A stretch of DNA of 64,000 bases from Blastomonas sp. AAP53 (GTDB lineage: Bacteria; Pseudomonadota; Alphaproteobacteria; Sphingomonadales; Sphingomonadaceae), in contig NZ_ANFZ01000009.1 of the NCBI RefSeq assembly GCF_000331245.1, forward strand, positions 62,001 to 126,000, read 5' to 3'. The translations under genes were made by a program, and so were the position numbers. The notes under the pieces were generated by a model, which was not told the origin of the DNA, ran no database searches, and saw only the letters and a list, made by a program, of their open reading frames with translations. Positions 2,859 to 16,913 of this stretch are shown here, piece after piece. Each line of letters opens with the position of its first letter. Position 1 is the stretch's first letter.

Positions 2859-3725
2859 TTAGCTGCGAAGCAGGCCCTGGCCCCAGCTGTTCAATGTGCG
2901 CTGTTCGTGCGGCCATTTGCCAACCGGCCGGTCATGCGCGACGGTTTCAAGCTCGGCGGAGATTTCCACCCAGTTGCCATCGGGATCATGGACAAACAGA
3001 AACAGGTTGTTGCCGGGACCATGCCGTCCTGGCCCCCACTGGATCGCGATATGCTCCGACGCCATGTGGTCGCCCCAGTCTCGGATCATGTTCCAGTCTG
3101 TGGTTTCGTAGCAGTGGTGATCGAGCCGGTCCTGTGCGGCCTTGAACACGGCAAAGCTGTGGTGCTCATCGCTGCACCGCAGGAACGACGTTCGCACACC
3201 ACCTTCGCTGTCAACAACATCGTCTGACAGGGTGAAGCCGAGCGCATCGATAAAGAAACGCACGATCTTTTCAGGGTCGCGACTTGCAACCACGACATGC
3301 TGCAACCGAGCAGGCATGCCATCCGCGACAGGACCGCCGTCAGGATTGTCCTGCGCAACGCCAAACACCAGCCGGTTGCCATCGGGATCGACCGTCTCGA
3401 TCGCATCGGCCAGCAATACTGACGCGACCTCGTGAAACATGGCGCCCGCATTGCGAATTCTGTCTTTAAGACGCTCCAGTTCGTCCCTGTCGGGCACTGC
3501 GAAACCCGCACTGACGAGGGATCTGGCCGGGCCCTCGAGAAAAATCAGGTGACGCTCGGGGCCACGGGCGATGATGGCAGCACCACAAGGTTGAAGGCGA
3601 TAACCCATGGCCCGTGCGTAGAAGTCGGCTGTCTGATGCGGATCGGGGCTGGCCAGGGCAAGATAGCGCAGGCTCGCCACAAGTGTATCAAGTGGGCGGC
3701 CCCACCGAACGGGCGCAGAAGACAT
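2859..3725 (-). CDS. Type I extradiol dioxygenase (VOC superfamily, BphC-like)
   Basis: A 288-residue two-domain vicinal-oxygen-chelate protein that should open a catechol-type ring next to the hydroxyls. The Fe(II) ligands expected for this family are present in the C-terminal domain: His143 (LQHVVV), His203 or His204 (LDHHCYE) and Glu254 (NWVEIS). The 'DEHHSFAVF' stretch at 186-194 carries the conserved His of the active-site lid. The N-terminal half (20-125) keeps the fold without ligands. The start is ATG at 3725 with GGAG 6 nt upstream; a GTG four codons earlier is less likely. It is the first gene of the operon and starts 43 bp from the inverted-repeat operator. The family is secure; substrates could be a catechol, hydroxyquinol, gallate-like compound or a biaryl catechol. 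Confidence 0.9.
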   Translation of the reverse strand: MSSAPVRWGRPLDTLVASLRYLALASPDPHQTADFYARAMGYRLQPCGAAIIARGPERHLIFLEGPARSLVSAGFAVPDRDELERLKDRIRNAGAMFHEVASVLLADAIETVDPDGNRLVFGVAQDNPDGGPVADGMPARLQHVVVASRDPEKIVRFFIDALGFTLSDDVVDSEGGVRTSFLRCSDEHHSFAVFKAAQDRLDHHCYETTDWNMIRDWGDHMASEHIAIQWGPGRHGPGNNLFLFVHDPDGNWVEISAELETVAHDRPVGKWPHEQRTLNSWGQGLLRS

Positions 3726-3767
3726 ACCTTGCTCCACAGACAGAAACCGACGAACGCATCGATTTTC

Positions 3768-3802
3768 ACAACATAATTCCTACATATCCGGAATTATGTT
3801 GT
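3768..3802. promoter_or_regulatory. Long inverted repeat in divergent promoter, probable operator (site A)
   Basis: Two perfectly complementary 13-bp arms, ACAACATAATTCC (3768-3780) and GGAATTATGTTGT (3790-3802), flank a 9-bp centre (TACATATCC). The site lies between the minus-strand ring-cleavage operon and the plus-strand stilbene-oxygenase genes. Its 23-bp core (3776-3798, read on the minus strand) matches 20 of 23 positions of a second site at 7313-7335 before the TonB receptor gene. The symmetry and recurrence point to a dimeric regulator; the IclR-type protein encoded at 9848 is the nearest candidate, by inference. Confidence 0.75.
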
Positions 3803-3828
3803 CAATCGACGATTGTTCGGTTTATGTC
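3777..3828. promoter_or_regulatory. Overlapping divergent promoters
   Basis: On the minus strand a consensus TTGACA (3805-3800) is followed after 17 nt by TAGGAA (3782-3777), a weak -10, so the operator lies between the two boxes. On the plus strand TTGTCA (3799-3804) is followed after 18 nt by TATGTC (3823-3828). The two -35 boxes share the same bases, so a protein bound at the inverted repeat would affect both directions. These are sequence matches only; start sites have not been mapped. Confidence 0.45.
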
Positions 3829-3902
3829 TGCCGCGTGCTGACGGCTTCCATGCCAGCCGCGATAATAGCATGCTCCCAAGGCGGGGCAGATCGGAGAGGT
3901 AT

Positions 3903-5366
3903 ATGACGGTCAAATTTCCTTCGACGCCGGACTTTGTCGGGGCGCTTTATGCGCCCTCGCGATTTGAAGGCTCCATTCGCGATCTGGAGGTTGAGGGCGA
4001 GATTCCCGCCGAACTCAACGGCACGTTCTTTCAGGTTTCGCCAGATCCTGCCTATCCCCCCATGCTGGGTGACGACATTTTCTTCAACGGTGATGGCGCG
4101 GTCACAGCCTTCCGGTTTGCTGGTGGCCATGTCGACATGCAGAGGCGATATGTCGAAACCGACCGCTTCAAGGCGCAACGCGCAGCCCGCAAATCACTGT
4201 TCGGGCATTACCGCAATCCCTATACCGATGATCCGTCCGTCGCAGGGCTGAGCGGCGGAACCGCCAACACGAACATTGTGCCATTTGCCGGCAAGTTGCT
4301 GGCACTCAAGGAAGACAGTCTTCCGGTCGCGATGGACCCCGATACCCTGGAAACAATCGGCAACTGGGACTTTAACGGCCAGATCGGCAACACGCCGTTC
4401 ACCGCCCATCCCAAACGCGACCCAAGCAATGGCAGCCTGCTCGCCTTCGGGTACGAAGCAGGCGGCCTGGCGTCGCGTGACGTGGTCTATTACGAGTTTT
4501 CTGCCGATGGCACCAAGCGGCGGGAAATATGGATCGAAGCACCCTATGCCAGCATGATCCATGACTTTGCGGTCACACCGAATTTTGTCGTTTTCCCGAT
4601 TGTGCCGATCACCGCCGATGGCGACAGGATGGTCGCAGGCGGGCAGCACTTCGAATGGCAGGACGATCTGCCATTTCAATTCGGCGTCATGCGCCGCGAT
4701 GGCGATGGCAGCGACATCCGCTGGTTTACGGCGCCTGCCTGCTTCCAGGCCCATGTGCTGAATGCGTTCGAAGATGGTCACAGGATTCATCTCGATATGC
4801 CAAGCTCCAGCGGCAATATCTTTCAGTTCGTCCAAAAAATCGGCGCGCCTGCTCCCGCACCACACACATTCCATTTCGAGCTCACGCGCTGGACCTTCGA
4901 TCGTGCCTCAGACGGTCGGGATGCGACGCGGCAGACCCTGTATGATGCGCCGTGTGAATTTCCCCGCTGCGATGATCGTGTTGTCGGCCTTCCTTATCGT
5001 CACGCCGTGATGCTCGGCTGTGACATGAGTTTGTACGCGATAGATCGCCTGGGTCCGCCGCCATGGCAGTTCTTCAACCAACTGGTGCACATCGATGTTG
5101 TCGCCGGCACGGCTGAAACCTGGTGCGGCGGAGATGCAGAATGCTTCCAGGAAGCCACGTTCGTGCAACGTGGTGAAAACGCACCGGAAGGAGATGGCTA
5201 CATACTGGCCCTCCTCAACCACCTCGAAACACACACGACGGAACTTGTCATCCTGGATACGCAGCGCGTTGATGCAGGCCCGGTTGCGCGGGTAAAGTTG
5301 CCGGTGCGCATGCGAATGAGCCTGCATGGCAATTGGGTCCCCGGCAAGAACATCGCGGCCGCCTAG
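3903..5366 (+). CDS. Carotenoid oxygenase family protein, probable hydroxystilbene/lignostilbene alpha,beta-dioxygenase
   Basis: A 487-residue seven-bladed propeller Fe(II) dioxygenase expected to split the central C=C of a stilbene into two aldehydes. The four iron ligands are visible: His169 (TAHPK), His220 (MIHDFA), His284 (AHVLNA) and His475 (LHGNW). Phe61, Tyr103 and Lys136 line up, with a constant offset of two, with Phe59, Tyr101 and Lys134, which I recall as the residues that hold the 4'-hydroxyl of the substrate in Novosphingobium NOV1. This favours 4-hydroxystilbenes (resveratrol, lignostilbenes) over carotenoids. No signal peptide is seen. I chose ATG at 3903, with GGAGAGG shortly upstream; an upstream in-frame ATG at 3813 would add a basic, unfamily-like tail. 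It is followed 29 bp later by an aldehyde dehydrogenase, which fits. Confidence 0.9.
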   Translation: MTVKFPSTPDFVGALYAPSRFEGSIRDLEVEGEIPAELNGTFFQVSPDPAYPPMLGDDIFFNGDGAVTAFRFAGGHVDMQRRYVETDRFKAQRAARKSLFGHYRNPYTDDPSVAGLSGGTANTNIVPFAGKLLALKEDSLPVAMDPDTLETIGNWDFNGQIGNTPFTAHPKRDPSNGSLLAFGYEAGGLASRDVVYYEFSADGTKRREIWIEAPYASMIHDFAVTPNFVVFPIVPITADGDRMVAGGQHFEWQDDLPFQFGVMRRDGDGSDIRWFTAPACFQAHVLNAFEDGHRIHLDMPSSSGNIFQFVQKIGAPAPAPHTFHFELTRWTFDRASDGRDATRQTLYDAPCEFPRCDDRVVGLPYRHAVMLGCDMSLYAIDRLGPPPWQFFNQLVHIDVVAGTAETWCGGDAECFQEATFVQRGENAPEGDGYILALLNHLETHTTELVILDTQRVDAGPVARVKLPVRMRMSLHGNWVPGKNIAAA

Positions 5367-5395
5367 CCCCGCCAATCCCATTCGAAAGGCCAACA

Positions 5396-6871
5396 ATGAC
5401 CACTGAATTTTTGCCGTACAAGGACATGGATGGGCAGTTTATTGCCGGGCAATGGCGCGCAGGACGGTCCGGAAAAGTGCTGCCCAACCATAACCCTTAC
5501 GACAGCGGCCTGCTGGGCGAGATTTCGCTCGCAAGCGAGTCCGATCTGGACGAAGCCTACCAGGCCGCCGCTGCCGCGCAAAGAAGCTGGGGCAAGTCGC
5601 TGCACAGCGAACGCAGTGCGCTGTTCCTCAGGGTTCTTGCGATCCTTGATCAGCGCAAGGACGAAATCATCGGCTGGATCGTCCGCGAAACAGGATCGAC
5701 CCTCCTCAAGGCAACCGCCGAATGGGGTGCCGTGCGCGCGGGGACAATGGAAGCTGTTGCGCTTCCTTCGCGCGTTGAAGGCAAGATCATGCCGATCGAC
5801 GTTCCGGGCAAGCAGAGCTTTGTCTATCGCGAACCGCTCGGCGTTATCGGCGTCATCAGCCCTTGGAACTTCCCGATGGTTCTATCCAACCGTTCGATCG
5901 CGCCCGCACTGGCGCTGGGCAACGCCGTCGTGGTCAAGCCGGCAGAGGATACGCCTGTTACCGGCGGCCTGTTGCTTGCCAAGATCTACGAGGAAGCAGG
6001 GCTTGCAGCGGGCCTGCTCAACGTCGTGGTAGGCGATGTGGCGGACATTGGCGATGCGTTCACCCTTCACCCCATTCCCAAGCTGATCTCATTCACCGGA
6101 TCGACGCGGGTCGGCAAGCGGATCGCCGAGATGGCGGCAACGGGCACCCGGCTCAAGCACGTCGGGCTTGAACTGGGGGGCAACGCTCCATTTGTGGTGC
6201 TAGATGATGCTGATCTTGACCTCGCGGTAGGAGCAGCGGCCTTTGGGCGCTTTCTGCATAACGGGCAGATCTGCATGAGCACCAACCGGATCATCGTCGA
6301 CGCCAGCATTTTCGATGCGTTTGTCGAAAAGTTCGTTGCACATGTGAAGACCTTCAAGACCGGCGATCCCAGCGACCCTGACACGGTGATTGGCCCGCTG
6401 ATCAACGGCAAGCAAAAAGCCGCAGCATTGCGTAACATCGCTGCTGCCCGTGCGGCGGGTTTCACCGAGGTGCTGGGAGGAGAGGCGGACGGCTTGATGG
6501 TTCCGCCACATATCTTCGTGAACGTCCCCAACGACAGCCCATTTGCGCAAACCGAACAATTTGCGCCGATCGCTCCGATCATCCGGGCAGCCAATGAAGA
6601 CGATGCGTTGCGGCTGGCGAACGAAACGGAATTCGGCCTGTCCAGTGCAGTTTTTACGCGCGATGTTGCTCGCGGTGTGCGCTTTGCACGTGGAATCGAA
6701 GCCGGCATGACCCATGTCAACGATATCTCGGTTCTCGACAGCCCGTTCAACATGTTTGGCGGGGAAAAGAACTCCGGAATCGGACGCTTCAATGGCGATT
6801 GGGTTATCGCTGAGATGACAACCGATCACTGGATTACGGTGCAGGATGGAGCACGGCACTACCCGTTCTGA
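5396..6871 (+). CDS. Aldehyde dehydrogenase (benzaldehyde/vanillin dehydrogenase-like)
   Basis: A 491-residue NAD(P)+-dependent aldehyde dehydrogenase. It shows the oxyanion Asn158 in SPWNFP, the cofactor-loop 'FTGSTRVG' near 233-240, the general base Glu259 (ELGGNAP) and the nucleophile Cys293 (GQICMST). Length and motifs match the benzaldehyde, salicylaldehyde and vanillin dehydrogenase branch ('GQICMSTNR'). ATG at 5396 has GAAAGG 6 nt before it. The gene follows the stilbene-type oxygenase by 29 bp and is probably cotranscribed with it. By context it would oxidise one or both aryl aldehydes released by the oxygenase to carboxylic acids. Family is certain; aryl specificity is inferred from the neighbours and the Cys motif. 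Confidence 0.92.
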   Translation: MTTEFLPYKDMDGQFIAGQWRAGRSGKVLPNHNPYDSGLLGEISLASESDLDEAYQAAAAAQRSWGKSLHSERSALFLRVLAILDQRKDEIIGWIVRETGSTLLKATAEWGAVRAGTMEAVALPSRVEGKIMPIDVPGKQSFVYREPLGVIGVISPWNFPMVLSNRSIAPALALGNAVVVKPAEDTPVTGGLLLAKIYEEAGLAAGLLNVVVGDVADIGDAFTLHPIPKLISFTGSTRVGKRIAEMAATGTRLKHVGLELGGNAPFVVLDDADLDLAVGAAAFGRFLHNGQICMSTNRIIVDASIFDAFVEKFVAHVKTFKTGDPSDPDTVIGPLINGKQKAAALRNIAAARAAGFTEVLGGEADGLMVPPHIFVNVPNDSPFAQTEQFAPIAPIIRAANEDDALRLANETEFGLSSAVFTRDVARGVRFARGIEAGMTHVNDISVLDSPFNMFGGEKNSGIGRFNGDWVIAEMTTDHWITVQDGARHYPF

Positions 6872-7105
6872 TCAGTCCCTGTCCGCGCTTGTGGCTTCGT
6901 CGAGGATCGGATGCATGACCGGCGCAGGGTCTGGATCGCCGAAACCAGCCATGAGACCATAATCCGCAAGTTGCGGGCATTGCGGCAACGCGCGGCGCGT
7001 TTGCAGGACACCGAAGGCCTCCGGACACTGTGGAGAATAACCCGCGCAGGATAAGCCTGCGCGACCATGGCTCGCAGCGGTCCTAGCGCTCTGGACGGGT
7101 AACAC
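6872..7105 (-). pseudogene. Possible 3' remnant of an unrecognised gene
   Basis: The 441 bp after the aldehyde dehydrogenase hold no intact gene. A minus-strand frame ending at 6872 has natural-looking GC-rich codons over its last 45 or so residues (for example ADYGLMAGFGDPDPAPVMHP) but no recognisable start or domain and is only 77 codons long. It could be the end of a truncated enzyme gene or chance. A perfect 8-bp hairpin (CGCGCAGG / CCTGCGCG, loop ATAAG) lies inside it at 7043-7063; no T-run follows on either strand. I see nothing definable between 7106 and 7312. Confidence 0.25.
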
Positions 7106-7312
7106 CAGCGCGGGATCGTCGCACCGCGCGCTTGCGCATGCGTTGGTGCCAGCACAGCTGCAGACTGGTCATGTCCAGCAAGACCTTGCCGATCTCCCGA
7201 CATTCCATCCAGCTGGATTTGGGTGTGCACCAGCGCCGTATGGAGGCTCTTCGTTCCTCGGCCGAAATTCAAAAATGACGCCCTGTTTCTCCGAAACGCC
7301 AAATTTGTGTTG

Positions 7313-7335
7313 CATATTTCCGGATATACAGGAAT
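7313..7335. promoter_or_regulatory. Second copy of the operator core (site B) before the TonB receptor gene
   Basis: The 23-bp core differs from site A at three positions only. The shared centre reads TTCCGGATAT, then two variable bases, then AGGAAT. The flanking arms are less symmetrical than in site A. It ends 46 bp before the receptor ATG and overlaps the region where a -35/-10 pair would sit (TTGCAT at 7310-7315 is a possible -35). It links the receptor gene to the divergent catabolic operons. Confidence 0.65.
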
Positions 7336-7381
7336 ATGGTCATTATAAATGAGGGCCAGAAAGGTTATCAGGGGAGGCATC

Positions 7382-9706
7382 ATGAGCATTCAAATTTCCA
7401 GAACCGGGTTAAATTCCTCGTGCGCTGCAATAGCGATATTCATGGCCTCGCTATCGATTGCGCAGGCACAAGACGCATCGGGCACACCGATGGCGGCCAG
7501 CGCGGATGCGGCGGAACCAGAGGCCGGATTGAGCGAGATCGTGGTTACGGCAGAGCGGCGTTCCGAAAATTTGCAGAAGACTGCTTTGGCGGTCAGCGCT
7601 GTTGACGGCGCTGCGCTTCAAGCAGCCAACATCTCACAACCGCAGGATCTTTCGAAGCTGATCCCGGCGTTGAAGCTCTCCAGCAGTGGTGGCAACGGCA
7701 CGCAGGTGACGATCCGTGGCGTCGGCAACTTTGCCGGGAACGCCTATTCCGAACCGGCGGTCGCAATCAACCTTGATGGCGTATATCTGGCCCGTTCTGG
7801 TGGCCCGAACGGCCTGTTCTACGATCTCGAACGTGTTGAGGTTCTCAAGGGACCGCAGGGCACGCTCTACGGCCGCAACGCGACCGCAGGCGCGATCAAC
7901 GTGATTGCGCGCAAGCCCACTGACACGCTGTCCGCCGAAGGCGCATTCACTGTCGGCAACTACGATCTGGTACGAGGGGAGGCTGCCGTCAACGTGCCGC
8001 TCGCAGAAGGCGCAGCGCTCCGGGTCGCTGGCATTTTCGTGCGCCGGGATGGCTATATGTCGGACGGCTACAACGATGACCGAAGCGAATCCATCCGTGC
8101 CCAGCTGCAGCTTGACATGACCGATCGGCTTTCGGTGTTGCTGTCTGGCGATTACGTGCACGTGGGTGGCAATGGCACCGCCGGCGTCTTTGCGCCTTTT
8201 CTCAATCCGGATGATCCTTATCTGGGGCCGACACGGGACGGCACCAACGCCATTCTGACTGAAGCGTCCCTGGCCATCAGCCGTGGTGGGAACCCCAATC
8301 TTCTGCCCAAGGTGCGTGATGATGGTTTTGTCGACATGGACAACTGGGGGGTTTCTGCAACGATAAGCTATGATCTGGATGGTGTGGATCTGACGGTCAT
8401 TCCGGCTTATCGTCGCAGCGATAACAGCTATTTGCATTATGCAGCCGGCTTCCCGATCACGGCGAGCGAATTGTCGAAGGCGACTTCGGTTGAAGTGCGC
8501 CTGGGATCGTCCGACGCTTCGCCGATCAAATGGCTTGTCGGGGGCTATTATTTTGACGAGGCGCTGAATTTCGATCTGTTCGCCAATCAGGGCGTTGCCT
8601 TCAACCGAACTGTCCCGGACCTAAAGACACGCAGTTACGCGGCCTTCGGCCAGCTGACGTACAGCATGACGGACACTTTCCGCGTGACGGCCGGGGGCCG
8701 CTATACCAACGAGCGCAAAACGCAAAGCGGCGTGAATGGCGGACCGTTACCACCCGTACCGGCCGGGTTCCCTGGTCCTGCGGTGGCATTCTACAACCTT
8801 GCATGCGCGCCCTATGATGCTGCTGCGAGCACATGCTTTGGCGCGTTGGATGGCGTCGTCAGGGACAGCAAGGTGACCTGGAAGGCGGGCGTGGAATATG
8901 ATGCCGGCGACCGATCGTTGCTCTATGCCAACGTGGCAACCGGCTTCAAGGCAGGCGGGTTCTACGCGTCTTTGACACCCAACACGTTCAAACCTGAAAC
9001 GCTGACTGCCTACACGGTGGGATCGAAAAACCGCTTTCTGGACAACACATTGCAGTTGAACCTTGAAGCGTTCTACTGGGTCTACAAGGACAAGCAGATC
9101 ACGCATCTGGGCCCCATTCTGCCAGGCGGGTTTGGTTTGATCACCGAAAATGCAGGCAAGGCAGACATCTATGGTGCCGAGATTGAGCTGCTGTGGCAGC
9201 CTGTCGCAAGTGACCGCTTCAGTGCAAACCTGCAGTACCTGAACAGCAAGTACAGTGATTTCACGTACAGGCAAAGCACGGCAACAGGCGTGCCGAACAC
9301 GGCCTGCGTGACGACGCCAATTGCAGGCGCTCAGGCTGTTCAGGTGGATTGCTCAGGGCGGGTTGCATCGCTCTCACCCAAATGGACGCTGAATGCCAAC
9401 TACGTCCATATTTTCGAATTGGGCGATGGTTCATCGGTTGATGCGCAAATGGGCACTCAGATCCAGAGCGGCTACTGGGTAGGCGAAGAGTATCTCGCCG
9501 GCCAGTTCCAGAAGGCATCGATGGTTTCGAATGCGTCGCTGACGTGGCATGTGTCGAATGATCGTTTTTCTCTGGCGGCCTTCGTCGACAATATCGAAGA
9601 CCGTGCCATCAAGGCGGCGTCGTTCGTGCAACCGGTGCTGGGAGCGTCATTCGCGCTGCTTCGTGCACCGCGCACTTTCGGCTTGCGCGGCAACTTCAGG
9701 TTTTGA
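7382..9706 (+). CDS. TonB-dependent outer-membrane receptor
   Basis: A 774-residue outer-membrane barrel transporter. A signal peptide ends near residue 29 (SIAQA|Q), followed by a linker and a TonB-box-like EIVVTA (52-57), the plug domain with the 'IRGVGNF' and 'VEVLKGPQGTLYGRNATAGAIN' elements, and a barrel ending in the terminal phenylalanine of 'GLRGNFRF' that the Bam machinery reads. This layout is typical of the large sphingomonad receptors placed beside aromatic catabolic genes. ATG at 7382 has a strong GGGGAGG 4 nt upstream; an in-frame start 11 codons earlier lacks one. The operator copy at 7313 and the terminator at 9746 bracket it as its own unit. It probably imports the pathway substrate or an oligomer of it across the outer membrane. 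Confidence 0.92.
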   Translation: MSIQISRTGLNSSCAAIAIFMASLSIAQAQDASGTPMAASADAAEPEAGLSEIVVTAERRSENLQKTALAVSAVDGAALQAANISQPQDLSKLIPALKLSSSGGNGTQVTIRGVGNFAGNAYSEPAVAINLDGVYLARSGGPNGLFYDLERVEVLKGPQGTLYGRNATAGAINVIARKPTDTLSAEGAFTVGNYDLVRGEAAVNVPLAEGAALRVAGIFVRRDGYMSDGYNDDRSESIRAQLQLDMTDRLSVLLSGDYVHVGGNGTAGVFAPFLNPDDPYLGPTRDGTNAILTEASLAISRGGNPNLLPKVRDDGFVDMDNWGVSATISYDLDGVDLTVIPAYRRSDNSYLHYAAGFPITASELSKATSVEVRLGSSDASPIKWLVGGYYFDEALNFDLFANQGVAFNRTVPDLKTRSYAAFGQLTYSMTDTFRVTAGGRYTNERKTQSGVNGGPLPPVPAGFPGPAVAFYNLACAPYDAAASTCFGALDGVVRDSKVTWKAGVEYDAGDRSLLYANVATGFKAGGFYASLTPNTFKPETLTAYTVGSKNRFLDNTLQLNLEAFYWVYKDKQITHLGPILPGGFGLITENAGKADIYGAEIELLWQPVASDRFSANLQYLNSKYSDFTYRQSTATGVPNTACVTTPIAGAQAVQVDCSGRVASLSPKWTLNANYVHIFELGDGSSVDAQMGTQIQSGYWVGEEYLAGQFQKASMVSNASLTWHVSNDRFSLAAFVDNIEDRAIKAASFVQPVLGASFALLRAPRTFGLRGNFRF

Positions 9707-9847: not shown

Positions 9848-10609
9848 ATGGCTACCGCCGATCGTGTGCTGTCCATTTTGGGCCTTTTCACGGTCGAAAG
9901 ACCGGAATGGACGGTCGATGCAGTCGCTCTTGAGCTTGGCCTGTCGGGTAGCACGGCGTATCAATATGTTCGAAGTCTTGTTGATGCAGGACTGCTCGTC
10001 AGCCAAAAGGGCGGGCGCTACATGGTCGGGCCTGCGATCATCGAACTCGACCGCGTCACCCGCCGTTTTGATCTGCTGGGAAATGCGGCGCGCGACACGC
10101 TCGAAGCGCTGACTGCAAGCGTCGATGCCGAGGCGATCGGGCTGTTATGCCGAATATATCGCCTGAAAGTGATGTGCGTCGATCAATGCGTTCTGCGTCC
10201 ACCAAGCTTCGCGATCAGCTATGAGCGCGGGCGCCCCATGCCACTCACTCGCGGGGCAGCATCCAAATGTATCCTGGCCCATCTTAAGTCGCGGGCGCTG
10301 CGGAAATTCTACGACAGTGAGCCGCAAGCCGTTCGTGACGCCGGCCTGGGCGAAGATTGGGAAGCGTTCAAACTTGCAATCAGGGATCTGAGAAAACAAC
10401 CCGTACTTGCGACTCGAGGAGAGCTTGACCCCGGTCTTATGGGTATTTCGGCACCGGTGTTTGACGCTGAAAATGTTGTCATCGGCAGTATTGGACTGGT
10501 CGTTTCTGCAGCTGATTTTGCCGATCAGTCAAAAATTGCTGTGGTGAGCACATCTGTGGCAGCAGCTGCTTTAGCTGTTTCCAAGCGGTTGAAAGACAGC
10601 TCTGAATGA
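9848..10609 (+). CDS. IclR family transcriptional regulator
   Basis: A 253-residue regulator with an N-terminal winged helix-turn-helix (about 1-65; 'TVDAVALELGLSGSTAYQYVRSL' contains the HTH) and a C-terminal IclR effector domain of GAF-like fold (about 80-248; 'RGAASKCILAHL' and 'DPGLMGISAPVFD' are the usual family segments). IclR proteins commonly control aromatic catabolic operons as ligand-responsive repressors or activators. The start has AGGTGA about 7 nt upstream. It has its own promoter region after a terminator, and no copy of the 23-bp operator core was found before it, so autoregulation through that site is not indicated. It is the only regulator gene in the catabolic block. Confidence 0.9.
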   Translation: MATADRVLSILGLFTVERPEWTVDAVALELGLSGSTAYQYVRSLVDAGLLVSQKGGRYMVGPAIIELDRVTRRFDLLGNAARDTLEALTASVDAEAIGLLCRIYRLKVMCVDQCVLRPPSFAISYERGRPMPLTRGAASKCILAHLKSRALRKFYDSEPQAVRDAGLGEDWEAFKLAIRDLRKQPVLATRGELDPGLMGISAPVFDAENVVIGSIGLVVSAADFADQSKIAVVSTSVAAAALAVSKRLKDSSE

Positions 10610-11109: not shown

Positions 11110-12231
11110 CTAGCTAACGACGCGGCCCGCGCTGCTGCCACTTTGCCGGTTGTTGCGGTCGATCGCCATCAGCATTCCCATGCAAATCATCACGGTCATC
11201 ATCGATGAGCCGCCATGGCTGATCAGAGGCAGGGGGATGCCGATCACCGGGGCAAGGCCCATGACCATCAACAGATTGATCGCCACATAGATGAATACGG
11301 TGGTCGCGAGGGTTGCTGCCGCAATGCGCTGGAACCGCTCCGTTGCCGCCAGCGCCACGCCCAGCCCCCACCAGGTGAGCAGGATGAAGCCGACGATCAG
11401 GAACAGGCCGCCTGCCAGGCCGAATTCCTCGGCAATCAGGGCGAAGACGAAATCGGTATGGCCTTCGGGAAGATAGTTGAGGTGCACCTGCGTGCCGTTG
11501 AGAAACCCCTTGCCGAAGATCCCGCCCGAGCCGATGGCAATTTTTGACTGGGTGATGTGATAGCCAGCGCCCAGAGGATCCGAGGCCGGGTCGAGGAAGG
11601 TCATGGCCCGGTTGCGCCAATGATCAAACCCGTAGATCAGGAGCAGCGGCACGCTGACCACGCCGGCCAGTCCACCGATGGCAAACAGCCGGATCGGTGT
11701 TCCCGCCAGGAACATTGCCACTGCGCCGCTGGCCAGGATCGTGATGGCGGTCCCCAGGTCCGGCTGCAGGATCACCAGTCCGGTCGGAACCAGGATCATG
11801 ATCACGGGAGGCCAGATTCCACCGAGCTTGCGCACTTCGCTGGGCGGGACCAGCTCGTAGAATCGCGCCAGTGCCAGCACCAGCGCCGGCTTGGCGAGTT
11901 CTGAGGGCTGCAGGCGGATGATGCCCAGATCGAGCCAGCTCTGCGCACCGCCTGCAACATGGCCTACCAACTCTGTGAGCAGCACCATGATGATGGCCAC
12001 CCCATAAGCCGGAAAAGCCAGATGCCGGTACCACGACAAGGGCAGGCGGGACATCACCAGCGCCACGGTGAACAGGACGGAAAAGCGGATCGCATGGCTG
12101 AGCGCCCATGGACTGGCATTGCCGCCCGCCGCCGAATACAGCACGATCACGCCCAGCCCTGCAATCAGCAGCAGCAGCGTGATCGCGCGCCATGGCAGAT
12201 CAGCAATCGGGCGGGGAACGATGCTGAGCAT
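11110..12231 (-). CDS. rodA: Rod shape-determining protein RodA (SEDS peptidoglycan glycosyltransferase)
   Basis: A 373-residue polytopic inner-membrane SEDS protein that polymerises lipid II during cell elongation with PBP2. Visible family landmarks are the 'SWLDLGIIRLQPSELAKP' segment, the 'QPDLGTA' loop, the catalytic-loop aspartate in 'GHTDFVF', and the 'PLPLISHGGSS' motif near the C-terminus. It is the last gene of the mreB-mreC-mreD-mrdA-rodA operon, one base after the mrdA stop codon, so the two are translationally coupled. About 140 bp separate it from tRNA-Lys and mark the border between core genes and the accessory block. Confidence 0.97.
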   Translation of the reverse strand: MLSIVPRPIADLPWRAITLLLLIAGLGVIVLYSAAGGNASPWALSHAIRFSVLFTVALVMSRLPLSWYRHLAFPAYGVAIIMVLLTELVGHVAGGAQSWLDLGIIRLQPSELAKPALVLALARFYELVPPSEVRKLGGIWPPVIMILVPTGLVILQPDLGTAITILASGAVAMFLAGTPIRLFAIGGLAGVVSVPLLLIYGFDHWRNRAMTFLDPASDPLGAGYHITQSKIAIGSGGIFGKGFLNGTQVHLNYLPEGHTDFVFALIAEEFGLAGGLFLIVGFILLTWWGLGVALAATERFQRIAAATLATTVFIYVAINLLMVMGLAPVIGIPLPLISHGGSSMMTVMICMGMLMAIDRNNRQSGSSAGRVVS

Positions 12232-12232
12232 G

Positions 12233-14152
12233 TCAGTCTGCTTCGCCTTCGGCCGGCGCTTCAGGCACCAGACCCTCGGCGCGCGCCCGGAACGAGGCGA
12301 ATTCGCTGGCCATGCGTTCGGCGATGTTGCCGCCCCAGCCGGCTTCCAGCGCGAGCAGGCTGTCCATCGCCTTTTGCGGATCGAACATATAGGTCATGAA
12401 ATCCTTGGCGACGGGCGCTGCGGCGCGCGACCCGCCCAGGCCATGCTCGATCACGACGGCAGCGGCATAGAGCGGCTGCTCGACGGGGGCAAAGCAGACA
12501 AACAGGCCGTGGTCGCGGTATTTCCATGGTACGCCAGCGCCGCCACGGCTGCCTGACCCGAAACCGCGCACCTGTGCGGTGCCGGTCTTCCCCGCCATCG
12601 CAATGCCATCCAGCGGCAGCTTGCTGCGTGCGGCGGTGCCCTGGCTGACCACCTGCGCCATGCCCTGTTGCGCGATGGCGAGATGTTCGGGGGAAAAGGG
12701 CAGGGTAGGGGCGATCTTGTCGTTGGGGATCAGGTGCGGATAAAGCTTGCGGCCCGAAGCGAGCCGCGCGGTCATCACCGCCAGCTGCAGTGGATTGACG
12801 ATGACATAGCCCTGGCCGATCACCGCATTCAACGAATCCGACGCGGTCCAGCCCTGCTTGTACTTGCGCATCTTCCATTCGCTGTCGGGAATGGTGCCAT
12901 AGCGCTGGTTGAGCCCGGCGAGGTCGAATTCCTCGCCCAGCCCCATTTCGCGCGCGACCATGGCAATCTTGTCATAGCCGAGGCGATGCGCCTGCGCGTA
13001 GAAATAGGTGTTGCAGCTCTTTTCGATCGCGCGGGTCATGTTGACCGGCCCGTGTCGTCCCAGGCACTGGTAGAAGCGGTTCCCCAGACGATAGCCACCG
13101 GGACAGTTGACGGTTTCTTCCGGGTCCACGCCGTTTTGCAGGCAGGCGACTGCCGCCATCGGCTTGAGCGTCGATCCCGGTGGATAGAGGCCGCGCGTCG
13201 CCTTGTTGAGCAGCGGAACGCGCTCATCCTGCGACATCATGGCGTATTCCAGTCTGCCGATGCCGTCCGAAAAGCTGTTCGGGTCGAAGCTGGGCATCGA
13301 TGAGAACGCCAGGATGCCGCCGGTCTGGCAATCGATCACCACCGCCGCACCCGATTCGCGCCCCATGCGGCGAGCAACGAATTCCTGCAAGCCGCCGTCG
13401 ATGGTGAGTTTCAGCGGCTTGCCCGGCACGTCTTCTTTCACGCCAAGTTCGCGCACGATCTTGCCGCGCGCGGTCACCTCAACCTTGCGCGCGCCGGGCT
13501 TGCCCTCAAGCCGTTCTTCGTAATATTTCTCAAGCCCGTCCTTGCCGATCTTGAAACCGGGCGTGATCAGCAGCGGGTTCTTGCTCTGCTCGTACTCTTC
13601 GGCATTGGCGATGCCGACATAGCCCAGCAGATGGCCGACCGCAGCCCCGGTGGGATACTGGCGCGAAAAGCCGCGTTGCGGGGCGACGCCCGGAAGATCG
13701 GGAAGCCGGACCGAAAGCGTCGCGAAATCCTCCCAGGTCAGCCCTGCGGCCACCGGTACGGGCTGCAACCCCCGGGCGTCCTTCATTGCGACGCGAAGGT
13801 CGTCGATTTCGTCGGGCGTCATGCGCAGAATGGTGCCCAGCTGGCTGATCGTCGTGTCGACATCGCGCACCCGTTGCGGGATCAGGTCGACCCGGAAGTC
13901 CGCCTTGTTGTTCGCCAGCGGCTTGCCGTGCCGGTCGATGATCCAGCCCCGGCGCGGCGGAATGAGCGTCAGGTTGACCCGGTTGCTCTCCGACAGCATC
14001 TTGTAGCGCTCGTTCTCGACGATCGAGATATACGCCATGCGGCCTGCCAGGACGGTGCCCAGCAGCCCCTGCGCACCACCGATCAGCATCGTTCGGCGAT
14101 TGAACGTGATGTTCAGCGAATTGCGGGTGATGAGCTTGCCGGGTCGTCTCAT
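12233..14152 (-). CDS. mrdA: Penicillin-binding protein 2 (peptidoglycan D,D-transpeptidase)
   Basis: A 639-residue class B PBP that crosslinks peptidoglycan in the elongasome. A single N-terminal anchor lies about 21-42. The pedestal with the 'PPRRGWIIDRHG' segment follows, then the transpeptidase domain with Ser327-x-x-Lys330 (GSTLK), Ser379-x-Asn381 (KSCNT) and Lys522-Thr-Gly (GKTGTAQ). The C-terminal tail after about 600 is acidic and variable. It lies between mreD and rodA, its enzymatic partner. The length is normal for the family. Confidence 0.96.
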   Translation of the reverse strand: MRRPGKLITRNSLNITFNRRTMLIGGAQGLLGTVLAGRMAYISIVENERYKMLSESNRVNLTLIPPRRGWIIDRHGKPLANNKADFRVDLIPQRVRDVDTTISQLGTILRMTPDEIDDLRVAMKDARGLQPVPVAAGLTWEDFATLSVRLPDLPGVAPQRGFSRQYPTGAAVGHLLGYVGIANAEEYEQSKNPLLITPGFKIGKDGLEKYYEERLEGKPGARKVEVTARGKIVRELGVKEDVPGKPLKLTIDGGLQEFVARRMGRESGAAVVIDCQTGGILAFSSMPSFDPNSFSDGIGRLEYAMMSQDERVPLLNKATRGLYPPGSTLKPMAAVACLQNGVDPEETVNCPGGYRLGNRFYQCLGRHGPVNMTRAIEKSCNTYFYAQAHRLGYDKIAMVAREMGLGEEFDLAGLNQRYGTIPDSEWKMRKYKQGWTASDSLNAVIGQGYVIVNPLQLAVMTARLASGRKLYPHLIPNDKIAPTLPFSPEHLAIAQQGMAQVVSQGTAARSKLPLDGIAMAGKTGTAQVRGFGSGSRGGAGVPWKYRDHGLFVCFAPVEQPLYAAAVVIEHGLGGSRAAAPVAKDFMTYMFDPQKAMDSLLALEAGWGGNIAERMASEFASFRARAEGLVPEAPAEGEAD

Positions 14153-14165
14153 GGCTTGCCTGCCG

Positions 14166-14681
14166 TCACCGCTTGAGACGGATATGGTCGAGCCGCGCGA
14201 CCAGGCGCAGCACCAGCGGATAGGTGAAGATCGCCAGGATCATCTGGGGGAACAGCACCGAGATGCGGGTGTCATTGACGAGAAAATTGTTGATCGCAAG
14301 GCCTCCTGCAATCGCGAATATAAGGCACACGGTGGCAATGAACCAGTCCTGCCAGTAATTGCGCCAGATATATCGCTGTTCGATGAGGTCGAGAGCAATC
14401 AGGATGATCGACCACAGCAATACTGCGCTCCCCACCGGCTGCCCGCTGAGAATGTCGTCAAACATGCCGAATGGAACGCCAGCCCACACCGGCCAGAGAC
14501 CAGGCCGAAGGATCTGCCAGCAGATCAGCACGACCAGGCCGAACGGCGGGAGAACCGGAGCAGAGGCCACAATCGGCAACAGCGGTGCCATGGATGCAGC
14601 CATTACCGACGCAATGGGCACGGCGGCCTTGCGGAAGGCGGAAGGCTCGCGGTTGAGCCGGGCCCGGTAAAGGTCGTTCAT
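14166..14681 (-). CDS. mreD: Rod shape-determining protein MreD
   Basis: A 171-residue integral membrane protein with about five hydrophobic segments, the typical MreD topology. It is a structural partner of MreC in the elongasome. The start codon overlaps the mreC stop by 4 bp (ATGA at 14681-14678), showing translational coupling. MreD is poorly conserved in sequence; the assignment rests on size, hydrophobic profile and position between mreC and mrdA, which together leave little doubt. Confidence 0.9.
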   Translation of the reverse strand: MNDLYRARLNREPSAFRKAAVPIASVMAASMAPLLPIVASAPVLPPFGLVVLICWQILRPGLWPVWAGVPFGMFDDILSGQPVGSAVLLWSIILIALDLIEQRYIWRNYWQDWFIATVCLIFAIAGGLAINNFLVNDTRISVLFPQMILAIFTYPLVLRLVARLDHIRLKR

Positions 14682-15694
14682 CGCGCAGCCGGACCTTGCA
14701 CGGGAACAGAGGCTTCAGCCTGGTCTGGGGCGGACGACGTCGGGGCTGGAGCGGTTGCTGGCGGCTGCGTTTCACGCTGACGTGGCGCTGAGAGCGGCGA
14801 TGCGGGCGATGAATCCGCCGGCGGCAGCCCGCTGGCTTCCGGATAGGCCAGCTCGGGCTCGTACATCTCCTGCACGATCACGAAATCGGTGCCAGCAGGG
14901 TTGGCAAGCAGCTTGCCGATGGCGCCATCATTGGTCAGCTTCTCGATGATCGCCACCGGCACGTTGGGCGGATAGATGCCGCCATTGCCCGATGTAACCA
15001 TCACATCGCCCACCTTGAACGGATTGATGCCGATATCGATCAGCTTGATGTCCACCCGGCCATCGCCACGCCCTTGCGAGAACGCCACCGTACCGTCACG
15101 CGCGCGGCGCACCGGCACGACGTTCTCGGCATCGCTGAGCAGAAGCACGCGCGAGGTGTTGGGTCCGGTTTCCAGCACCCGGCCGATCAGGCCACGCTGG
15201 GCGCGCACCGGTTGGCCGCGCTGCACGCCCTGGCGCGACCCGACATCAAGCGTGGCATAGCGGCGGCTGCTGGAGGCAGAGGAGTTGATCAGACGCGCGG
15301 TCGCGACAGGGCGGCCATCCTGCTTGATCAGGCCCAGCAAGCGGCGCAACTCGCGGTTTTCCTGGCGCAGAGCGCGCGCTTCGATCAGCCGCATCCGGTT
15401 GCGTTCGACCTCGCGCTGCAGCGCGGCGTTCTTCGATCCCGCATCGAAATAGGCTGCGACTTCGCGCCAGCCGTTCTGCGTCCCCACCCGCATGCCGGTC
15501 AGCAGCCGGGCAGGCGGCGCGGTGACCTCTGCGGTCATGCTGCGCACCGCAGAAAAGGCGGCCGGATCGAAATAGGACAAGGCAAGCAGAAGCAGACCGG
15601 CAAACGCGCCCGTAAAGGCCAGCAAATAGCCGGTGAAGATCTGCAGTTGCGCCTTGCGGGAGAACCCGGGGCGCCGGTTCCGCGGCGGCGCCAT
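14678..15694 (-). CDS. mreC: Rod shape-determining protein MreC
   Basis: A 338-residue bitopic protein. An Arg-rich N-terminus leads into one membrane helix (about 20-40), then a periplasmic coiled coil (about 75-120; 'LQREVERNRMRLIEARALRQENRELRRLL') and the double beta-barrel domain with 'LDVGSRQGVQRGQPV' and 'VGDVMVTSGNGGIYPPNVPV'. The last 60 residues are a Pro/Ala/Ser-rich tail, probably disordered. MreC scaffolds PBP2 and MreB. It follows mreB by 13 bp. Confidence 0.95.
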   Translation of the reverse strand: MAPPRNRRPGFSRKAQLQIFTGYLLAFTGAFAGLLLLALSYFDPAAFSAVRSMTAEVTAPPARLLTGMRVGTQNGWREVAAYFDAGSKNAALQREVERNRMRLIEARALRQENRELRRLLGLIKQDGRPVATARLINSSASSSRRYATLDVGSRQGVQRGQPVRAQRGLIGRVLETGPNTSRVLLLSDAENVVPVRRARDGTVAFSQGRGDGRVDIKLIDIGINPFKVGDVMVTSGNGGIYPPNVPVAIIEKLTNDGAIGKLLANPAGTDFVIVQEMYEPELAYPEASGLPPADSSPASPLSAPRQRETQPPATAPAPTSSAPDQAEASVPVQGPAAR

Positions 15695-15707
15695 ACTGTG
15701 TGCGCCC

Positions 15708-16913
<1,206 letters not shown>

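Follow-up and report, generated by a model that had tools for sequence, protein, structure and literature searches.

Two catabolic operons diverge from a short intergenic gap in the window, i.e., the whole 64-kb stretch of DNA analysed here, and genes for a TonB receptor and an IclR-family regulator lie close by. This raises the question whether these three transcription units share an operator and, if so, which protein reads it. The original prediction proposed one regulator for all of them and named the IclR protein as the candidate.

Genes of the locus

The minus-strand operon runs from a VOC-family extradiol ring-cleavage dioxygenase gene (2859-3737; PF00903, with HpaD/catechol-2,3-dioxygenase-like matches below cut-offs) via a fumarylacetoacetate-hydrolase (FAH) family gene (1985-2845; PF01557) to a gene for an MhpA-like FAD-dependent aromatic hydroxylase (358-1974; PF01494, NF004831 above cut-off). 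Based on the aligned starts of relatives, ATG 3725 is a likelier start of the ring-cleavage gene than GTG 3737. The set of hydroxylase, extradiol dioxygenase and FAH protein presumably resembles orcinol-type (resorcinol ring) pathways. The small contig of a relative (G032:C20:3584-3736; L050, L141) carries a 51-residue fragment that matches the end of the ring-cleavage protein with 75% identity.

On the plus strand, a carotenoid-oxygenase family gene (3903-5366; PF03055) is followed by an aldehyde dehydrogenase gene (5396-6871; PF00171). The former is lignostilbene-dioxygenase-like and scores 575 bits for the respective equivalog NF053778, below its cut-off of 800 bits, i.e., it is related and its substrate is putative. 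The TonB-dependent receptor gene (7382-9706, plus strand; PF00593, PF07715) and, 3' of it, the gene of the IclR-family regulator (9848-10609, plus strand), which we propose to read both sites, complete the block. Rod-shape-like genes (rodA, mrdA, mreD, mreC, mreB; 11110-16901, minus strand; named by eye) are found beside it.

Both IclR-family domains are above cut-off (HTH PF09339 with 4e-10, effector domain PF01614 with 3.4e-13), and the cut-off of the PcaR/PcaU/PobR subfamily TIGR02431 is not reached (51.6 vs. 284.75 bits). When searched against its own genome, the IclR protein matches only itself at E 0.001.

Structure of sites A and B

Site A (3768-3802) lies within the 165-bp gap between the ring-cleavage gene (minus strand) and the carotenoid-oxygenase family gene (plus strand). 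It reads ACAACATAATTCC-TACATATCC-GGAATTATGTTGT, that is, its arms are exactly complementary and form the perfect 13-bp inverted repeat with a 9-bp centre that had been described for it. Site B (7310-7342) is located 48 bp 5' of the TonB receptor start with its TTCC-N9-GGAA core at 7318-7334. Positions 7313-7335 agree with the reverse complement of site A at 20/23 core positions, which reproduces the reported likeness in opposite orientations; the next best place for the 23-mer of site A in the window reaches 15/23. The arms of site B are asymmetric and agree at 6/13 positions only.

Site A and the divergent promoters

Two promoters meet at site A. For the stilbene-dioxygenase operon, a -35 box TTGTCA (3799-3804, plus strand) and, after an 18-bp spacer, a candidate -10 box TATGTC (3823-3828) can be read from the sequence. 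This arrangement, TTGTCA-N18-TATRNC (with TATGTC, TATGCC or TATAAC), is found in the window as well as in L072 and L073. The ring-cleavage operon has its -35 box TTGACA at 3800-3805 (minus strand) and the candidate -10 position TAGGAA at 3777-3782, 17 bp further on. The two -35 boxes do overlap as predicted, and TTGTCA also overlaps the edge of the operator, i.e., the operator touches the -35 of the plus operon.

The claim that the operator is placed between the -35 and -10 of the minus operon has to be amended. It fills the spacer, but it also overlaps the -10 position, since TTGACA plus 17 bp leads into the TTCC arm; it is thus not wholly between the boxes. TAGGAA is a poor hexamer with a weak match to the consensus, and the identical hexamer is present in 6/7 relatives. 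The same holds for the full arrangement TTGACA-N6-TTCC-N9-GGAA, which the window shares with 6/7 relatives; the exception L076 shows TTGACT-N8. For site B, reading the surrounding sequence by eye gave no clear -35/-10 pair.

Specificity of the motif

The bare pattern TTCC-N9-GGAA occurs twice in the window, while 0.72 occurrences are expected. Because 18/100 shuffles also reach two, we dropped the bare pattern as evidence of non-chance. We also built a symmetric weight matrix of 33 columns, trained on the promoter sites of 7 relatives with the window excluded from training. Over the 64-kb window, it assigns 36.4 bits to site A and 25.5 bits to site B, and no other place exceeds 8 bits. This includes the region upstream of iclR, such that autoregulation is not evident. 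The maximum was 15.1 bits in 50 Mb simulated from the trinucleotides of the window (order-2) and 13.5 bits in 78 control loci (326 kb) from genomes in which no close IclR was seen. In 50 Mb of random sequence with 40% GC, the maximum was 23.7 bits, with 19 matches of at least 20 bits and none of 25.5 bits.

A genome-wide scan for the core motif had been suggested as a check. Within the whole 3.6-Mb genome, WWTTCC-N9-GGAAWW is confined to sites A and B (reversed-pattern control: 0), so the motif is not scattered over many unrelated genes. For 15 other genomes, the respective counts range from 0 to 15 (controls: 0 to 7). A 23-mer tuned to site A matches only site A. Two further patterns were discarded: TTCC/GGAA with a spacing of N12-18 (300 matches vs. 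362 in the control) had the wrong spacing and was uninformative, and another consensus, which found site B and missed site A, was badly chosen.

A covariance model was derived from 8 sites, none of them from the window, and used to score 150 of 478 first-look candidates of the whole genome. Among these, E is 4.6e-5 for site A and 1.8 for site B, and nothing else reaches E<=10. Four genomes of the same genus without a close IclR (G001, G002, G005, G008) reach E 2.87 at best. Some arms show symmetric double changes (TTAC/GTAA in L073, TTCTT/AAGAA in L162). The observed pairing of the arms over 17 sites was reached by 102/500 column shuffles; as this is not clearly above shuffles, arm covariation is not used as support.

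Judged by its sequence, site A is a real site beyond doubt. Site B is weaker than site A and likely an operator.

Co-occurrence of site and IclR at ring-cleavage loci

Using the ring-cleavage protein as query, we obtained 15 loci in named genomes. TTCC-N9-GGAA is found directly 5' of the ring-cleavage gene at 7/15 loci (L072-L076, L079, L081); at L080, it stands 5' of the hydroxylase gene preceding the ring-cleavage gene. An IclR protein of 54-80% identity is encoded in 6/15 genomes, all of which are among the seven with the site at the ring-cleavage promoter. Including the window, this site is thus present in 7/7 genomes that combine the ring-cleavage gene with an IclR of at least 54% identity. 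The iclR gene adjoins the ring-cleavage gene in L075, L076, L079 and L081, is about 3 kb away in L073 and resides on another contig in Sphingobium Ant17. Exceptions are L074 and L080, which have the site while the best IclR homologues found in the assemblies show 36% and 40% identity; the end of the L074 contig lies 211 bp from the site. In L077, L078 and L086, the weight-matrix scan gave nothing above 8 bits.

At L082 and L084, the hydroxylase gene is preceded by a variant, TTCTCATTTT...GGGAA or GAGAA. More generally, a repeat TTCYCATTTT...GRGAA with TTGAC directly 3' precedes this gene in Beijerinckiaceae/Rhizobiales MAGs (L080:8300-8332; L082, about 6617-6649; L084, upstream of 8382), whose IclR homologues show 40-44% identity only.

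Before import genes, Nitrospirillum L073 has a pair of sites, 35 bp apart and scoring 22.5 and 21.4 bits, in front of a PF13557 gene, which we take to encode an outer-membrane channel. Within Sphingobium Ant17, the TonB receptor match 3' of the aldehyde dehydrogenase (L072:3479-6015) is split over two ORFs, perhaps by a frameshift or an assembly error. A TTTCC-N9-GGAAA near a TonB receptor in L131 of the same genome is weak (<8 bits) and was dropped, and a place of 14.5 bits before another TonB receptor (L072:6273) was left uncounted.

Site and IclR at other loci

Conservation at ring-cleavage promoters can be explained in part by shared ancestry, such that other loci provide the better test. 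IclR searches at E 1e-25 gave 8 genomes each among 396 of the order and 385 of the class, counting the own genome, and a plasmid search at E 1e-20 yielded 51 records. We scanned 16 regions around IclR homologues and found a site of at least 15 bits in 3/16; the other 13 do not exceed 12.9 bits.

The strongest case is a Methylobacterium currus plasmid (L161). Here, the IclR is 63% identical and a 33.1-bit site is found 100 bp before a phenol-2-monooxygenase-like gene, which precedes iclR. No ring-cleavage orthologue is encoded on this plasmid (best match 31% over half its length; plasmid only searched), i.e., in this case the motif goes with the IclR and not with the ring-cleavage gene. For more distant homologues of about 37-50% identity, the nearby site is weaker or absent in several cases. 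Shinella (IclR 43%) shows a 23.6-bit site between gentisate dioxygenase and transporter genes and Phaeobacter (IclR 40%) two intergenic sites of 17.8 and 17.2 bits. For L165 (IclR 50%), the ATTCC-N9-GGAAT in the gap that separates iclR from a divergently oriented TonB receptor gene scores only 10.8 bits, and KA1 (IclR 41%) reaches 5.3 bits. The same ring-cleavage/FAH/hydroxylase set is also found on the Shinella (L162:30975-35241) and Phaeobacter (L164:732-5202) plasmids, where it adjoins IclR-family genes of 33-38% identity that are separate from the better-matching IclR genes.

Recognition helix

A comparison of the recognition helices of 18 selected IclR homologues shows that the residue at position 39 co-varies with the site. 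It is Q, H or E in 9/9 homologues of at least 49% identity and R in 9/9 others. By reading the S-T pattern by eye, position 39 would correspond to TtgV Arg52, for which the available part of PMC8222616 (Table 5) lists a direct base contact to DNA.

Relation to known operators

Two groups of IclR operators are described in the part of PMC8222616 at hand. The original prediction noted that IclR sites are often drawn with GGAA and TTCC the other way round. This was half right, since TTYC...GRAA is, according to the same part of that review, the larger group. Sites A and B as well as the 8 training sites follow this group 1 order with TTCC-N9-GGAA, but their spacing of 9 bp departs from the 7-8 bp between TTYC and GRAA that is given there for group 1. 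The group 2 order TGRAACA-N1-2-TGTTYCA (PMC8222616, as far as available) is not found, i.e., the half-sites here are reversed in order. One of the closest known cases is the group 1 subgroup WTT-11-AAW (WTTYCRYW3RYGRAAW), which has TTYC/GRAA arms and an A/T-rich centre as well; it counts 11 bp from TT to AA compared to 13 bp here, where also the outer CAAWW/WWTTG is conserved. Among the individual regulators covered by the part of the review at hand, GenR of Corynebacterium glutamicum (IclR family; 3-hydroxybenzoate/gentisate) has the same half-sites in the same order, ATTCC-N7(5)-GGAAT (PMC8222616, Table 1). The GenR centre is shorter (7 or 5 vs. 9 bp), GenR serves another pathway, and the likeness refers to the operator. 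The 9-bp centre is thus a spacing variant of known IclR operators, and a 9-bp case that the available part does not list may exist.

Two sphingomonad systems offer themselves for comparison. PheR of Sphingobium sp. SHPJ-2 is also an IclR-family regulator of an aromatic pathway, and TonB receptors are up about sevenfold in its deletion mutant, a transcriptomic result for which the accessible part of PMC13273656 gives no binding site; the PheR core GCAACG reported there is unlike the sites here. At Saro_0803/nov1, a repeat overlaps the -10 of a stilbene-dioxygenase promoter and resveratrol releases the regulator, according to the part of PMC10046596 at hand. Saro_0803 is MarR-like, in contrast to the IclR protein here, and its repeat GCAATA...TATTGC is unrelated. 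A literature search, with most subscription journals beyond reach, found no paper on the operator itself.

Discussion

Sequence comparison establishes that the two sites exist, that they are confined to these promoters and that they co-occur with the IclR protein. We judge site A to be a genuine, local operator, probably of the IclR protein, and the three promoters probably form one regulon. That a single regulator, with IclR as the candidate, could serve all three units is favoured by the comparative data (7/7 genomes, L161). We consider it quite probable that the IclR protein (9848-10609) reads sites A and B as a repressor of the three units and that a pathway compound relieves this repression. 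Here, an IclR dimer (or tetramer) would grip the half-sites CAAWWTTCC and GGAAWWTTG over the 9-bp centre. When bound at site A, it would cover, on the ring-cleavage side, the -10 position as well as the spacer between -35 and -10. On the other side, it would touch the -35 box of the stilbene-dioxygenase/aldehyde-dehydrogenase operon, such that one bound regulator would shut both operons. Binding to site B would have a weaker negative effect on the TonB receptor. A pathway substrate or ring intermediate would free IclR, so that uptake, side-chain cleavage and cleavage of the ring would increase jointly.

IclR binding, the sign of the regulation, the inducer and the function of site B are what we infer in this circuit. 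It is rather unlikely, though to be taken seriously, that IclR is the reader but works as an activator, or that its sign differs between the two sides, with repression of the ring-cleavage operon and activation on the stilbene side. The family comprises repressors, activators and dual regulators (PMC8222616, available part), a GGAA arm is placed 5-6 bp 5' of a TTGNCA box on the stilbene side of site A, in L080 and in L161, where activators can sit, and the -10 of the ring-cleavage promoter is poor. On the other hand, the operator of the window and 6/7 relatives occupies the stretch between -35 and -10 of that promoter, which is the usual place of a repressor, and PheR, the IclR protein of a sphingomonad, is a repressor as far as PMC13273656 is available. 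Repression relieved by a pathway compound, as for PheR, would thus be the simplest reading.

A different reader of the sites, e.g., from the MarR or TetR family, is highly unlikely. Such a reader is known for the nov1 stilbene dioxygenase of Novosphingobium aromaticivorans, which is under the control of the MarR-like Saro_0803 until resveratrol releases it, but the nov1 repeat GCAATA...TATTGC differs from sites A and B (both from the part of PMC10046596 at hand). L074 and L080 have sites and no close IclR was found there; against this stands L161, which has both site and IclR without a ring-cleavage orthologue. A LysR-type gene about 4 kb before the window (L142:6926-7906) has apparently unrelated neighbours. 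That only site A is a real operator, with the likeness of site B due to chance or decay and the TonB receptor outside the regulon, is unlikely too. The asymmetric arms of site B, its covariance-model E of 1.8 and the lack of a clear -35/-10 pair would fit this. But with 25.5 bits it exceeds everything in the 100 Mb of simulated sequence (maxima of 15.1 and 23.7 for the two kinds of simulation), and it is the second and last exact-core place in the genome, 48 bp 5' of a receptor start. In L165, a TonB receptor gene that diverges from iclR is preceded by ATTCC-N9-GGAAT, and in L073 there are sites upstream of a different gene with a predicted outer-membrane product.

Compared to known systems, the proposed IclR circuit is overall tidy and fairly ordinary, with a slightly unusual spacing. 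Beyond this locus, it is conceivable, if tentative, that the regulators form a distinct IclR lineage with Q/H/E for R at the direct-contact position, a wide TT-13-AA operator and small regulons of catabolism plus import. Therein, the importer would be exchanged between lineages, with sphingomonads using a TonB receptor and Nitrospirillum a PF13557 channel, and the operator would have arisen anew before each non-homologous import gene.

For the stilbene-type aromatic catabolism of sphingomonads, the locus provides a concrete and cheaply testable operator-regulator pair, in which an outer-membrane importer is proposed as a direct target of the same switch. The IclR code would gain an operator with a 9-bp centre and a recognition-helix residue that co-varies with it. 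Provided that a stilbene or a resorcinol-type acid acts as the inducer, the pair could be used as a biosensor.
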